DNA of 64,000 nucleotides. It comes from Desulfobulbaceae bacterium. GTDB lineage: Bacteria > Desulfobacterota > Desulfobulbia > Desulfobulbales > Desulfocapsaceae. The stretch is taken from NCBI GenBank assembly GCA_011390165.1, contig JAABSV010000011.1:1-64000 (forward strand), given 5' to 3'. The notes under the pieces were generated by a model, which worked only from the letters and a program-made list of their open reading frames with translations, had not been told where the DNA came from and did no database searches. Below are positions 49,966 to 54,409 of the stretch, piece by piece. Each line of letters starts with the position of its first letter. Within the stretch, counting starts at the first letter, position 1. Both the position numbers and the translations under genes were made by a program.

Positions 49966-51195
49966 CTATTTGTTGATATTTTCCTCCGGAATCGGCTTTT
50001 TCTCCCCGGTCCTGGCCAGTTGCAGTTTGCCCCAGCCACCACCTAGAAGGGCGGGCTGCTCGAAAGTCAGCAGGCAAAAGAAGAAGCTGCCGTCGCTCTC
50101 CCTGGCCGCCGCTGCCGCCTGGATATGGCGGGACGAGACGGCACTGTTGCCGCCGGCAACCCGGTTGATCCACCAGTCCCTGTCGACGATCAACAACCGG
50201 CGAACCTCCGGCCAGCCGGCATTTTTCAACAGAGCGAGCATCTCCTCCTGGAGGGCGGCATCGGTCTTACCGGGTTGCGGCATCTGCTGCAGTTTGCCGG
50301 CGCCATCCTTGATTGCCGAAAGCAGCGGTGCGTAGACCGAAAAATCACTGCCGGTAATGATAAACTCACCTGCGGCATGCACATCTCCATAGGACTTCAC
50401 CTCAAGCCTGATCCGGTGTTCACCTGGGGGCAACTCACTTAAATATTTGGTGAACAGCTCCGGGCCAAAGCGATAGCCATCCTTACTGGGGAAGACGATG
50501 TCGGTATCGGTATAGTTGGTCATCGCCGCCGGCTCCGGGGCGATATCGATGACAAAGTAGTCCCGGGCAAGCAGTTCAGCCCGTTTCAAGCCAACCGTCC
50601 GCATACTCTTCTCGGTGCCGTCAATAAAGAGATGGAGCATCAGGTAATCGCTGTTTTTTACCAGCTTCTTCCAGGAATCCTGGGCTTTTAACATACCATA
50701 GATCCTCTCTCCGGCCGTAAACGAGAGTGTCGTTGGCGGTGGGTTGGCCGGGTCGATCGGGGTTGGTGAAAAAACCGATCCAACTACCCCGGCACCGGCC
50801 GGAGCCACAGTCTCCGGGGCCGTGGCCGTAGCCTGGACGGCGGCAGGCTGAGACGCGGGGACTGCTGCCGGCGTTGTTTTCATCGGCTCGTCGGCCACGA
50901 AGACTCCGGCTGGCTTCTTCGCCCCGGAAGTTGAGGTGGTCGGCGGTGTTGCCTGCTTCTCTTTTTCTTCAGCTGGTAACACCTGTTTTACCTGTTCTTC
51001 AATGGAATTGATCCCACTTTGCACTGCCTTACCGACATCATCCACCAGATTGCTGAATTTGAAGGCATGACAGGTCATGGGAACCAGCAGCAACAGCAAC
51101 AGCAGGGTGAGGACAATTTTGCCAGTGGGGGCTTTGACTGGACCGGGATTGGCAGAGGAGAGGACAGGAAGTGTACTGGAGGACTGGACCGGCAT
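49966..51195 (-). CDS. Hypothetical exported or anchored protein, 409 residues
   Basis: Unrecognised protein with an N-terminal hydrophobic helix (KIVLTLLLLLLLVPMTCHAF, about 26-45) that acts as signal peptide or anchor. A Pro/Ala/Thr-rich linker covers about residues 80-150. A globular region follows (TLSFTAGERIYGMLKAQDSW, then IDGTEKSMRTVGLKRAELLA). A conserved-looking end includes LLIVDRDWWINRVAGGN and SFFFCLLTFEQPALLGG. TAAGGAG upstream fixes the start. It is the last gene of the minus-strand group that includes the radical SAM maturase and RluA-type synthase, 149 nt further on. No function can be assigned. Confidence 0.65.
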   Translation of the reverse strand: MPVQSSSTLPVLSSANPGPVKAPTGKIVLTLLLLLLLVPMTCHAFKFSNLVDDVGKAVQSGINSIEEQVKQVLPAEEKEKQATPPTTSTSGAKKPAGVFVADEPMKTTPAAVPASQPAAVQATATAPETVAPAGAGVVGSVFSPTPIDPANPPPTTLSFTAGERIYGMLKAQDSWKKLVKNSDYLMLHLFIDGTEKSMRTVGLKRAELLARDYFVIDIAPEPAAMTNYTDTDIVFPSKDGYRFGPELFTKYLSELPPGEHRIRLEVKSYGDVHAAGEFIITGSDFSVYAPLLSAIKDGAGKLQQMPQPGKTDAALQEEMLALLKNAGWPEVRRLLIVDRDWWINRVAGGNSAVSSRHIQAAAAARESDGSFFFCLLTFEQPALLGGGWGKLQLARTGEKKPIPEENINK

Positions 51196-52226: not shown

Positions 52227-53765
52227 TTACTCCCGAAAACAATAGGGGTCAAGGGCCGAAAAAATATCCAGCCCAAAGCCATGGCTGACGGCCAGACAGC
52301 CGCCGCAGGCCGGACGGATCGGGCAGTCACGGCAGGCGGAACTCCCCAGCCGGTACCTTTCGGCAAGGGGGCTGTCGTATATTTCGGCCAGTGAACCGCA
52401 GCGGATGTTGCCCAGTGGGGAGGGAAGTTTCCGGCAGGCATGGACCACCCCATCCGGCAGAAGAGCGACAAAATTAAAGGCGGCACCGCAGCCAAATCCG
52501 GCACAGCCACCGCCAACCGAATGGCCCTGCTGCCAGCGGAGGAGATTGAAGAGATTCTCCTTTAATCGGATAACCGGGTTGTTCTCGGCCGCCTCAAGGT
52601 ATTCGGCCAGAAAGTGTCGGAACCCCTTTGGAGGAACTGACGCCAGAGCCGCCCCCTCCCCAACCATGGCCAGGCGGTTGAACGAGAAGAGATCAACCCG
52701 GTGGCGAAGGAGTTCCGCCAGGGGGAGAACCTGTTCCAGGTTGGCTCTGGTGAGAGTGAGCATGACCATCGAAAAGATTCCCATTTCCCCAAGGAGATCA
52801 AGAAAGGCCAGCACTCTGTCGAAATGCCCCACCCCGCGAATGTAATCGTTGTGGTCCGGCAGTCCCTCCAGGCTGACCTGGAAAAACTCCGGCTTTTTTA
52901 TTGCCAATATCTTCTCCAGCGTCGCCCTGTCTGCCGGGTTACCGAGGATGGCGGTGAGCAGGCCCCGTTCGCTGGCCCCCCGGTAGAACTGGTAAAAGTG
53001 TTCCGCCAGCAGAGGGTTGCCGCCTGTGAAACTGACCTGGCCATAGACATGCCGGGCCTGACAGAAGTCGTACAGCTGGTCGAGAACCCCTACACCCTCG
53101 GTCAGGGACATCTCGCGGCAGGGTCTGCGGTCGTAACAGTGGCGACAGTGCAGGTCACAGGCCTGGGTGAGATGCCACTGCAGGGTAAAGGCCTGGGCCT
53201 GGAGCAGTTCTTCGCTACCGGCCAGTTGGCGGGCAAAACTCTCGGGACGGACCAGGCGGGAGGCAGGAGCCAGCAGAAGACCACGGCCTTCGGCGGCCCA
53301 GAGGATATCATCGATCACCCCAATGGGAACCCCGGCGATACGGGCCGCTTCCCGGCTGGGTATGGCTTCGGTGACAATCTTCAAGGCCAAGAGATCGTGG
53401 CTGCCGGGAGTGCATATTTTCGGGTAGCTTCCAGGCTCCATGGCCTGGAGGAGGACAAACCCCTCCCCAGGGACCGGTCGACCACCCTGGCCGGCGAGCA
53501 GTTCCGGCAGCCCCTGCCAGCTGACGGCCACCAGGTCAAGACCGGGATGGACCCTTCGTACCTCTTCACTGGCGATGGCCGGCCTATTGGAGAGCTGATA
53601 GGCCGCCAACTCCACTGTCGCCAGATCGGCCAGAAACGGCGCCTCCCGGCATAGTTCCGGTTGTCTGACCAGCAACTTCGGGAGTTGCTCCGGCTGCGGA
53701 CAGCTGATATTGTCCGGCAGCAGGGGAAAACTGACCGGGTAGATCCTTTGCAGAAGACTCTTCAC
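52227..53765 (-). CDS. sbtM: Radical SAM/SPASM RiPP maturase, SbtM-like (thio/selenooxazole peptide)
   Basis: Predicted maturase of the selenocysteine-rich peptide encoded just upstream. The SAM cluster is Cys203, Cys207 and Cys210 in TQACDLHCRHCYDRRPC, and VSFTGGNPLLAEHF is the SAM-binding GGxP loop. The C-terminal third is a SPASM region: GGGCAGFGCGAAFNFVALLP, VVHACRKLPSPLGNI and SACRDCPIRPACGGCLAVSH, giving ligands for auxiliary 4Fe-4S clusters. Residues 1-190 lack iron ligands and probably recognise the leader peptide. I chose GTG 53765, preceded by AAGGA at 7 nt; the longer frame would overlap the precursor's terminator. Length 512. I recall an NCBI family of this type paired with SbtA peptides. 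The chemistry is inferred. Confidence 0.82.
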   Translation of the reverse strand: MKSLLQRIYPVSFPLLPDNISCPQPEQLPKLLVRQPELCREAPFLADLATVELAAYQLSNRPAIASEEVRRVHPGLDLVAVSWQGLPELLAGQGGRPVPGEGFVLLQAMEPGSYPKICTPGSHDLLALKIVTEAIPSREAARIAGVPIGVIDDILWAAEGRGLLLAPASRLVRPESFARQLAGSEELLQAQAFTLQWHLTQACDLHCRHCYDRRPCREMSLTEGVGVLDQLYDFCQARHVYGQVSFTGGNPLLAEHFYQFYRGASERGLLTAILGNPADRATLEKILAIKKPEFFQVSLEGLPDHNDYIRGVGHFDRVLAFLDLLGEMGIFSMVMLTLTRANLEQVLPLAELLRHRVDLFSFNRLAMVGEGAALASVPPKGFRHFLAEYLEAAENNPVIRLKENLFNLLRWQQGHSVGGGCAGFGCGAAFNFVALLPDGVVHACRKLPSPLGNIRCGSLAEIYDSPLAERYRLGSSACRDCPIRPACGGCLAVSHGFGLDIFSALDPYCFRE

Positions 53766-53897: not shown

Positions 53898-53934
53898 GAT
53901 CGGCCGACAGCTGTTGCACAGCCATCGGCCGATC
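53898..53934 (-). terminator. Strong intrinsic terminator between precursor peptide and maturase
   Basis: Ten-bp outer stem GATCGGCCGA/TCGGCCGATC extended by seven more pairs to a 3-nt loop. On the minus strand it is followed by CTCTTTTTTT. Its place after the peptide gene would give abundant precursor mRNA with limited readthrough into the maturase gene. Confidence 0.88.
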
Positions 53935-53966: not shown

Positions 53967-53985
53967 CAGGTGCGGACCGCACCTG
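53967..53985 (-). promoter_or_regulatory. SECIS-like hairpin 4 (after TGA codon 111, in 3' UTR)
   Basis: CAGGTGC, loop GGTCC, GCACCTG: a 7-bp stem beginning 13 nt after the fourth TGA and running past the final stop. The GGTC loop on a GTGC/GCAC stem closely resembles the E. coli fdhF SECIS apex. Confidence 0.7.
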
Positions 53986-53992
53986 GGCGGTA

Positions 53993-54331
53993 TCAGCTTC
54001 AGCCGCTTTTGGCCGCTTCTTTTTTCGGTTCTTCGACCGGTTCACCGCTTGCCTTGGCTGCGCCATCAGTTTCGTCTGTGCTGGTGCGCACGGCACCATC
54101 CTTGGCCCCACCTCAGCCGCTGGCGGCGGCCGGTTTCTTCACCTCAGCGCTCACGGCGCCGGGCTTGGCCCCTCAGCCGCTACCGGCGGCCGGCTTACTC
54201 ACCTCAGCGCTCCCGGCGCTGGGTTTGGCCCCTCAACCACTCCCCGAGGCATGGGCACCGGGCAGGGTCACCCCTCCGGCACTGAGCAGGCTGGCCACAC
54301 CCAGACCCGCCAGTATTTTTTTCATCTTCAT
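53993..54331 (-). CDS. sbtA: Multi-selenocysteine RiPP precursor peptide, SbtA-like
   Basis: A 112-codon frame with TGA at codons 33, 53, 73 and 111, ending at another TGA after Ser112. The leader is MKMKKILAGLGVASLLSAGG then VTLPGAHASGSG. Each internal TGA follows Ser-Gly and the first three are followed by G-(G)-A-K. A 20-residue repeat (GAKPxAxSAEVxKPAAxSG) continues in frame across TGA codons, which chance would not keep. Each TGA has a pentaloop hairpin 11-15 nt downstream, as selenocysteine insertion needs. AGGAGG lies 5 nt before the first ATG. The next gene is a SPASM radical SAM maturase. I interpret it as a selenopeptide whose Ser-Gly-Sec units are modified. Reading TGA as stop would leave only a 32-residue leader. 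Confidence 0.85.
54083..54097 (-). promoter_or_regulatory. SECIS-like hairpin 3 (after TGA codon 73)
   Basis: GGTGC, loop CGTGC, GCACC: a 5-bp stem starting 15 nt after the third TGA. An extra Gly codon after this TGA shifts it by three bases compared with hairpins 1 and 2. Confidence 0.65.
54145..54161 (-). promoter_or_regulatory. SECIS-like hairpin 2 (after TGA codon 53)
   Basis: CGGCGC, loop CGTGA, GCGCTG: 6-bp stem with one G-T pair, starting 11 nt after the second TGA. The base that differs from hairpin 1 keeps pairing while changing the amino acid. Confidence 0.7.
54205..54221 (-). promoter_or_regulatory. SECIS-like hairpin 1 (after TGA codon 33)
   Basis: CAGCGC, loop CGGGA, GCGCTG: perfect 6-bp stem starting 11 nt after the first TGA, within the coding repeat. 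Confidence 0.7.
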
Positions 54332-54409
54332 CCCGACCTCCTTCTGGCATCGTGTACAGCATATCGATAGGACCATCCGATCAATACACCGCTCTCCATA
54401 GGTAATCGT

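Follow-up and report, generated by a model that had tools for sequence, protein, structure and literature searches.

SbtA and SbtM (NCBIfam families TIGR04081 and TIGR04082) are the precursor and the maturase of a named and little studied family of ribosomally synthesized and post-translationally modified peptides (RiPPs), and the thio(seleno)oxazole account that reviews give of this family reportedly goes back to an SbtM study by Lewis et al. 2021 (Biochemistry 60:3347). According to the accessible part of one such review, an SbtM takes four hydrogens from cysteine as well as selenocysteine (Sec) peptides, and a thiooxazole was identified by nuclear magnetic resonance in the Cys product (PMC11002830, citing Lewis et al. 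2021). A 2026 review, likewise accessible in part, lists 119 prokaryotic selenoprotein families, the vast majority with one Sec and a small subset with two or three (PMC13188914). Bacterial selenocysteine insertion sequences (SECIS) are placed in the coding region by the relevant sections of two reviews (PMC13188914, PMC11431864), in one of them with the qualifier "typically". Here we describe an sbtA/sbtM locus in a 64,000-nucleotide stretch of a Desulfobulbaceae genome (contig JAABSV010000011.1, positions 1 to 64,000; hereafter the window). The locus shares with the known systems the leader model, the maturase, the Ser-Gly-Sec (SG-U) motif and the SECIS behind TGA. It differs in Sec number, with two in a review's example (WP_074187118.1, from the accessible excerpt), four in the window and up to six in relatives, and we add a SECIS-like hairpin for each UGA, the last one past the stop codon, and leaders that are signal-peptide-like or lipobox-like. 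Within the openly licensed literature, a scope that leaves Lewis et al. 2021 outside, the Sec number and the post-stop SECIS are the new parts.

The sbtA gene occupies positions 53993–54331 on the minus strand, with its ATG at 54331 preceded by a Shine-Dalgarno-like AAGGAGGT (54336–54343). Translation bore out what a prior sequence-only reading had claimed, a frame of 112 residues with four in-frame TGA codons, and a fifth TGA ends the frame. With TGA read as U, the peptide is MKMKKILAGLGVASLLSAGGVTLPGAHASGSGUGAKPSAGSAEVSKPAAGSGUGAKPGAVSAEVKKPAAASGUGGAKDGAVRTSTDETDGAAKASGEPVEEPKKEAAKSGUS. The Sec codons encode residues 33, 53, 73 and 111 (54233–54235, 54173–54175, 54113–54115 and 53999–54001), and the fifth TGA (53993–53995), two codons past the last of them, is read as the true stop, in keeping with homologue endings. 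All four stand in the Ser-Gly-TGA context that had been described, which gives the core motif expected of SbtA precursors. The coherent 20-residue repeat that had also been described holds for its first two copies, which are nearly alike, and fades in the third, which is degenerate and partly similar. A plus-strand reading of the same interval was rejected, as it contains no coherent repeat. Ordinary translation stops at codon 33 and yields only a 32-residue leader, and annotation software for which every TGA ends a frame would leave genes of this kind as short fragments or antisense open reading frames (ORFs). Against a cut-off of 30.5, residues 2–24 score 35.2–36.3 bits with TIGR04081. The gene that follows on this strand reaches 626.7 bits with TIGR04082, far above the cut-off of 350, and the family that the sequence-only reading had named is therefore the right one. 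The proposal of a selenium-rich RiPP beside a SPASM radical SAM enzyme is strongly supported at the level of the genes; for its chemistry and function here, we infer what follows further below.

Behind each of the four UGA codons we found a SECIS-like hairpin, all on the minus strand. Hairpins 1 to 3 (54205–54221, 54145–54161 and 54082–54098), with loops CGGGA, CGTGA and CGTGC lying 17, 17 and 20 nt past their UGA, are inside the coding region. Hairpin 4 (53967–53985), with its loop 21 nt past the UGA, lies wholly 3' of the stop codon in the 3' untranslated region (UTR). The continuous stems comprise 6, 6, 6 and 8 pairs, the folding energies are −8.7, −8.0, −8.0 and −12.2 kcal/mol, and all four have a G within the first two loop positions. 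Each site satisfies the published bSECIS model, which specifies a 3–9 nt loop, a 4–16 bp stem, a G in loop positions 1–2, a distance of 16–37 nt and an energy of −7.5 or lower (PMC13188914, in the section accessible). The hairpins that the sequence-only reading had assigned to its hidden gene are thus present, one to each TGA, and the change from hairpin 1 to hairpin 2 preserves pairing as it had said, an A-U pair becoming G-U; that hairpin 4 lies past the stop had gone unstated. At its top this hairpin has GGUC, as does the Escherichia coli fdhF SECIS. The sbtA family departs from fdhF in that as many as six such elements follow one another within a single short gene, the last of them in the 3' UTR. 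Under synonymous-codon shuffling, site 1 was clear (0.01) and sites 2 and 3 taken singly were not (0.19 and 0.175); the evidence for hairpins beyond chance comes from the family.

Matches to TIGR04081 occur in 136 of 257 genomes of the host order, 133 of them above the cut-off. From the loci and from a search for related stretches, of which the best 80 of 324 were used, we obtained 159 distinct precursors. Three were cut by contig ends and left out, leaving 156 complete ones. The seed model gave no precursor in 5 of the 129 regions fetched for a TIGR04081 match, nor in 16/80 SbtM loci of one set and 10/30 of another. Peptide ends were set at a UGA that lay no more than three residues past a Sec or that stood in a foreign context. 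This rule errs in both directions: the UGA after Glu-Gly-Cys in L082, L088 and L196 was scored as Sec and is probably a stop, which lowers the total from 394 to 391; conversely, a few peptides, L127 and L136 among them, were probably ended too early. The hairpin, C-terminal-site, published-model and internal covariation counts below were made on the 394-site set. One locus (L153) holds two precursors that were conflated in some C-terminal counts, and a recount with unique keys left these unchanged.

The 156 complete precursors contain 391 likely Sec codons, 320 of them preceded by Ser-Gly. With the three doubtful sites removed, six precursors have no Sec, 14 have one, 62 two, 48 three, 22 four, three five and one six, the last (L094) in a Desulfofustis metagenome-assembled genome. 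Four to six Sec are therefore found in 26/156, compared with one, rarely two or three, in known prokaryotic families. Homologues retain SG-U repeats after the first TGA, where the sequence-only reading had seen unrelated sequence as the outcome that would count against it. As scored, the precursors end in TAA (84), TGA (39, or 42 with the three doubtful sites) and TAG (33). A same-genus genome (G005) shares its peptide with Desulfopila sp. IMCC35006, Desulfopila being a genus of the Desulfobulbales. Two culturable relatives have the arrangement seen in the window, Desulfofustis glycolicus with four Sec and Desulfopila sp. IMCC35006 with three. Members also come from contigs that carry the label Nitrospirota or Nitrospirae (L148, L150, L151).

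To compare sites across this set, a hairpin behind a UGA had to have an uninterrupted stem of 4 pairs or more and a loop of 3–9 nt, and a strict test further required a UGA-to-loop distance of 16–22 nt and the rule on G. Hairpins of −3 kcal/mol or lower stand behind 387 of 394 UGA codons, 380 of the 387 with G in loop positions 1–2, and the most common distances are 20 nt (193 sites) and 17 nt (67 sites). Among precursors with at least two Sec, 128/136 have a hairpin behind every one. The strict test was passed by 354 of 391 UGA codons (354/394 as first counted) compared with 14.6% of 15,982 other codons in the same genes. In the lineage whose peptides end in Glu-Gly-Cys, one of 13 C-terminal Cys codons passed it. 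When synonymous codons were shuffled at 274 internal sites, the mean energy rose from −7.67 to −2.63 kcal/mol, with only 57% of the sites individually at or below 0.05. For covariation, the register of internal sites was set independently of pairing, from a protein motif that follows Sec, for example A-(G/V)-(S/G). This motif is present at 235 of 278 sites (the 43 without it were left out) and gave 227 distinct segments. The six-pair internal stem has standard pairs in 97.8% of cells, compared with 14.0–45.7% when the partner is slid by 1–3 nt, and 250 cells are changed on both sides, compared with 3–28 when slid; these figures count related sequences more than once. Covariation of the hairpins in homologues, whose absence had been named as telling against the hidden gene, is thus seen at internal sites, and it is seen past the stop as well.

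We defined a C-terminal site as a last Sec no more than six residues from the peptide end, which leaves little or no coding room for a SECIS. All 111 such sites are followed by a hairpin of −3 kcal/mol or lower. The strict test is passed by 99 of them, and 90 have the whole hairpin 3' of the stop codon, as in the window. A first covariation count on these hairpins was set aside as partly circular, the hairpins having been chosen for being paired. We instead aligned 109 post-stop segments by sequence only with MAFFT; RNAalifold returned a seven-pair hairpin of −8.57, compared with 0 for every one of 100 column-shuffled alignments, and 192 cells are changed on both sides. Since sbtA encodes no protein past its stop, its coding cannot explain this hairpin, and these comparisons argue that the sbtA family carries a natural bacterial 3'-UTR SECIS. 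Post-stop hairpins would for the same reason offer a clean test of what SelB requires. Stops after a C-terminal Sec are TAA in 57, TGA in 34 and TAG in 20 cases, and in the 34 that use UGA the loop lies 6–17 nt from the stop, in 33 of them less than 16 nt. This is outside the published 16–37 nt and appears to show the distance rule at work in nature, with the UGA-Ser-(Gly)-UGA ending marking a natural limit between Sec insertion and termination. No natural post-stop bacterial SECIS was found in the openly licensed literature, including the accessible parts of PMC9312934 and PMC12013277 (Lewis et al. 2021 again being outside this scope). An excerpt of PMC11431864 describes an engineered case for thioredoxin reductase in E. 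coli, which shows that the arrangement can work; the sbtA case differs in being natural.

Transcription termination was considered as the main role of hairpin 4 and rejected, as no T-run follows on its 3' side and an intrinsic-terminator-like site is present further downstream; across the family, at least five T in the next nine bases occur in only 9/111 C-terminal hairpins. The downstream site, 17 pairs followed by TCTTTTTTT (53898–53934, minus strand), divides sbtA from sbtM, so that sbtM is probably expressed less than sbtA. Rfam, at its gathering threshold, gave no match in the 64-kb window.

The end of ordinary translation at codon 33 would fit an account in which TGA is a plain stop, only the 32-residue leader being made and the rest being a chance or decayed frame. 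Repeats conserved after each TGA in homologues and the covariation of the hairpins speak against this, as does the host genome, which encodes the Sec machinery that the sequence-only reading had asked for: a tRNA-Sec (70.4 bits, anticodon tca), selA (575.5 bits), selB (332.9 bits) and selD (372.4 bits). The absence of selB and selC, which it had considered fatal, is therefore not the situation here. The selD gene itself has one in-frame TGA followed by GCTCCAG-GGGAC-CTGGAGC, with the loop 19–20 nt downstream and −13.3 kcal/mol, which is a SECIS-like hairpin of the same build as those of sbtA in another gene of the genome. We regard the plain-stop account as very improbable. The openness of the frame through TGA would also fit codon reassignment, in which the genome would read TGA as an ordinary amino acid. 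This we rejected and consider scarcely credible: pyrF, upstream of sbtA, ends in TGA as a plain stop in the host genome, TGA ends precursors in the family at the counts given above, and SECIS-like hairpins are far commoner behind UGA than behind other codons.

The maturase gene sbtM (52227–53765, minus strand) encodes an SbtM-family radical SAM/SPASM protein of 512 residues, with a probable GTG start at 53765 behind AAGGA, which is likelier than the start of the mechanical 579-residue ORF. Pfam recognizes its radical SAM and SPASM domains, and the CxxxCxxC motif of the former and the cysteines of the SPASM region are invariant in 17 SbtM sequences. An AlphaFold2 model (pLDDT 88.6, pTM 0.88) places three strands and three helices at residues 53–137, before the barrel, which is the layout of an RRE domain. 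The best Foldseek matches of the model in the PDB are RiPP maturases (5wgg/5why, SuiB and SkfB), and the match is partial, with TM values of about 0.5. The earlier statement that no characterized product of the family was known needs amending, as thiooxazole formation in vitro has already been described for an SbtM (PMC11002830, in its accessible part). SbtM above the cut-off is present in 41 of 97 relatives; SbtA lies within 4 kb of it in 31 of these 41 genomes, and the 10 without such a neighbour suggest that SbtM can probably work in trans.

Genes around sbtA were clustered at 81 loci, using ORFs of at least 70 residues and scanning cluster representatives only. SbtM is present in 77/81 neighbourhoods, and among the 81 there is no widely conserved third gene. 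The largest other cluster consists of GGDEF proteins (27/81). Smaller ones include ABC ATPases (11), an RNA methyltransferase (10), M16 peptidases (10), HlyD (6), MacB (5) and EamA (5); two further clusters are, judged by position, antisense to sbtA or of low complexity. The GGDEF (diguanylate cyclase) genes stand on either strand and at varied distances, and may simply be genes that are common in these bacteria.

The leaders of the 156 precursors begin with a basic segment (mean net charge +1.8 over nine residues) and continue as a hydrophobic one. A lipobox-like Cys precedes the first Sec in 23. Among the remaining 133, AXA stands close to the core in 83, in the window as AHA before SGSGU. 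These features suggest export by the general secretory (Sec) route, with lipidation in some lineages. In the mechanism that we propose, SelB, held by the hairpin behind each UGA, would insert Sec four times into the 112-residue precursor, a step strongly supported by the comparisons above, with the fourth SECIS acting from the 3' UTR. The UGA two codons past the last Sec would serve as the stop because it is too near hairpin 4. SbtM would then bind the N-terminal leader through its RRE-like N-terminal domain and, if it acts as the published enzyme does, remove four hydrogens from each Gly-Sec in an oxidation that yields a selenooxazole with an exposed selenolate. The leader would thereafter act as a signal peptide for the general secretory route and deliver the modified peptide to the cell envelope. 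The product is most likely an exported peptide with several selenooxazoles, and an SbtA/SbtM locus combining serial SECIS, selenooxazole formation and export is, taken as a whole, a reading that we hold with good confidence.

Several observations weigh against it. The published SECIS model is satisfied at 264/394 sites (compared with 15.3% of 4000 sampled codons) and at 65/111 C-terminal sites, and among 30 Cys sites, a set that takes in the lipobox Cys, nine resemble a SECIS site. Column shuffling that keeps composition leaves 85.8% of internal pairs standard, and much of the internal pairing is therefore due to conserved letters. Six genomes that are 95–100% complete (G036, G019, G057, G027, G198 and G206) carry selB, tRNA-Sec and an sbtA with 2–5 UGA, and yet no selA was found in them above cut-off with TIGR00474 or PF03841, G019 having one 19-bit match. 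SepSecS (TIGR03531) was not found as a substitute in seven genomes that include these six; the gap could reflect a masked stretch or another or unknown Sec synthase. The case for signal peptides is one of leader composition and sequence patterns, and the transport-type (ABC/HlyD/MacB) and M16 peptidase genes near sbtM in minorities of loci leave room for another route of export or cleavage. Finally, UGA decoding in E. coli fdhF is 30–40% efficient according to the accessible text of PMC4513850; at the same efficiency per UGA, full-length SbtA would come from about 1–3% of starts, most products ending early.

What an exported poly-selenooxazole peptide would do is suggested by bufferins and captophorins, which the accessible parts of two papers describe as carrying 5-thiooxazoles and binding Cu (PMC12668002) and, for bufferins, as having general secretory signal peptides and protecting from copper, with about 16% of Buf2 being lipoproteins (PMC12452194); a RiPP lipoprotein has been demonstrated (PMC12636315, in part). 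SbtA would resemble them in a heterocycle of the thiooxazole type and in several modified sites per peptide, and its leaders have a composition and AXA or lipobox patterns that suggest signal peptides of this route and a putative lipoprotein subset. It differs in that they are made by MNIO enzymes and SbtA by a radical SAM enzyme, and in that selenium replaces sulfur; no kinship in sequence is claimed. No MNIO enzyme (PF05114) was found in 97 relatives, host genome included, and the parallel is thus limited to working alike. By this analogy we tentatively favour an exported buffer that binds a soft metal such as Cu(I). A broader proposal, possible if rather doubtful, is that sbtA mRNAs of Desulfobulbales and relatives hold serial arrays in which as many as six UGA-SECIS units follow one another and the final SECIS works naturally from the 3' UTR, and that their products are exported and partly lipid-anchored poly-selenooxazole metal buffers, an oxygen-independent selenium counterpart of the copper-binding bufferins. 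If the product is indeed exported and metal-binding, it would do with selenium, and with no need for oxygen, what sulfur does for the makers of bufferins.

The same genes and chemistry might instead serve selenium itself, the peptide storing or carrying the element or reporting its supply, in the manner of the multi-Sec selenoprotein P of vertebrates. As many as six Sec in a small low-complexity peptide would suit such a role, and at 30–40% efficiency the UGA series would tie product length steeply to Sec supply. A dedicated oxidizing enzyme alongside would make the selenium hard to recover, and the existence of Cys-only homologues makes storage unlikely as the sole role; on balance we consider a selenium role unlikely. 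Less probable still is a secreted antibacterial, although the family is listed as a "selenobacteriocin" in the accessible part of PMC13188914, its architecture is that of a RiPP, and the ABC ATPase, M16 peptidase, HlyD, MacB and EamA genes occur in minorities of the loci at the frequencies given above. Besides sbtM, nothing is found in more than the 27 of 81 neighbourhoods that have GGDEF genes, no search having been aimed at immunity genes; lipobox-like leaders would tether the product to its producer; and the family is widespread within one order.

Some family members depart from the common pattern. The precursors L177, L189 and L206 have no Sec and carry SG-C motifs, and their genomes (G094, G086 and G253) nonetheless carry selA. 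Cys sites of L012, L060, L122 and L251 keep hairpins of −8 or lower, from which it may be that Cys has recently replaced Sec in these four, or that Sec might still be inserted at their Cys codons by wobble decoding, to which an E. coli paper (PMC3834832) reportedly pertains. L254 and L255 are SbtA-like; their leaders are lipobox-like or contain a Cys, and each peptide has one SGUSGL motif, at its C terminus. They possibly form a separate one-Sec subfamily. Within the genus of the host, L216 (G009:C11:147000-150500) is an sbtA/sbtM remnant with a Trp codon at the first Sec position; its frame continues into a piece of SbtM, the match to which is broken by one TGA and one TAA, and this points to loss of the system within the genus. 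Elsewhere in the window, the minus strand encodes a predicted protein of 409 residues (49966–51195) that has a hydrophobic start, an Ala/Pro-rich stretch and no Pfam match.
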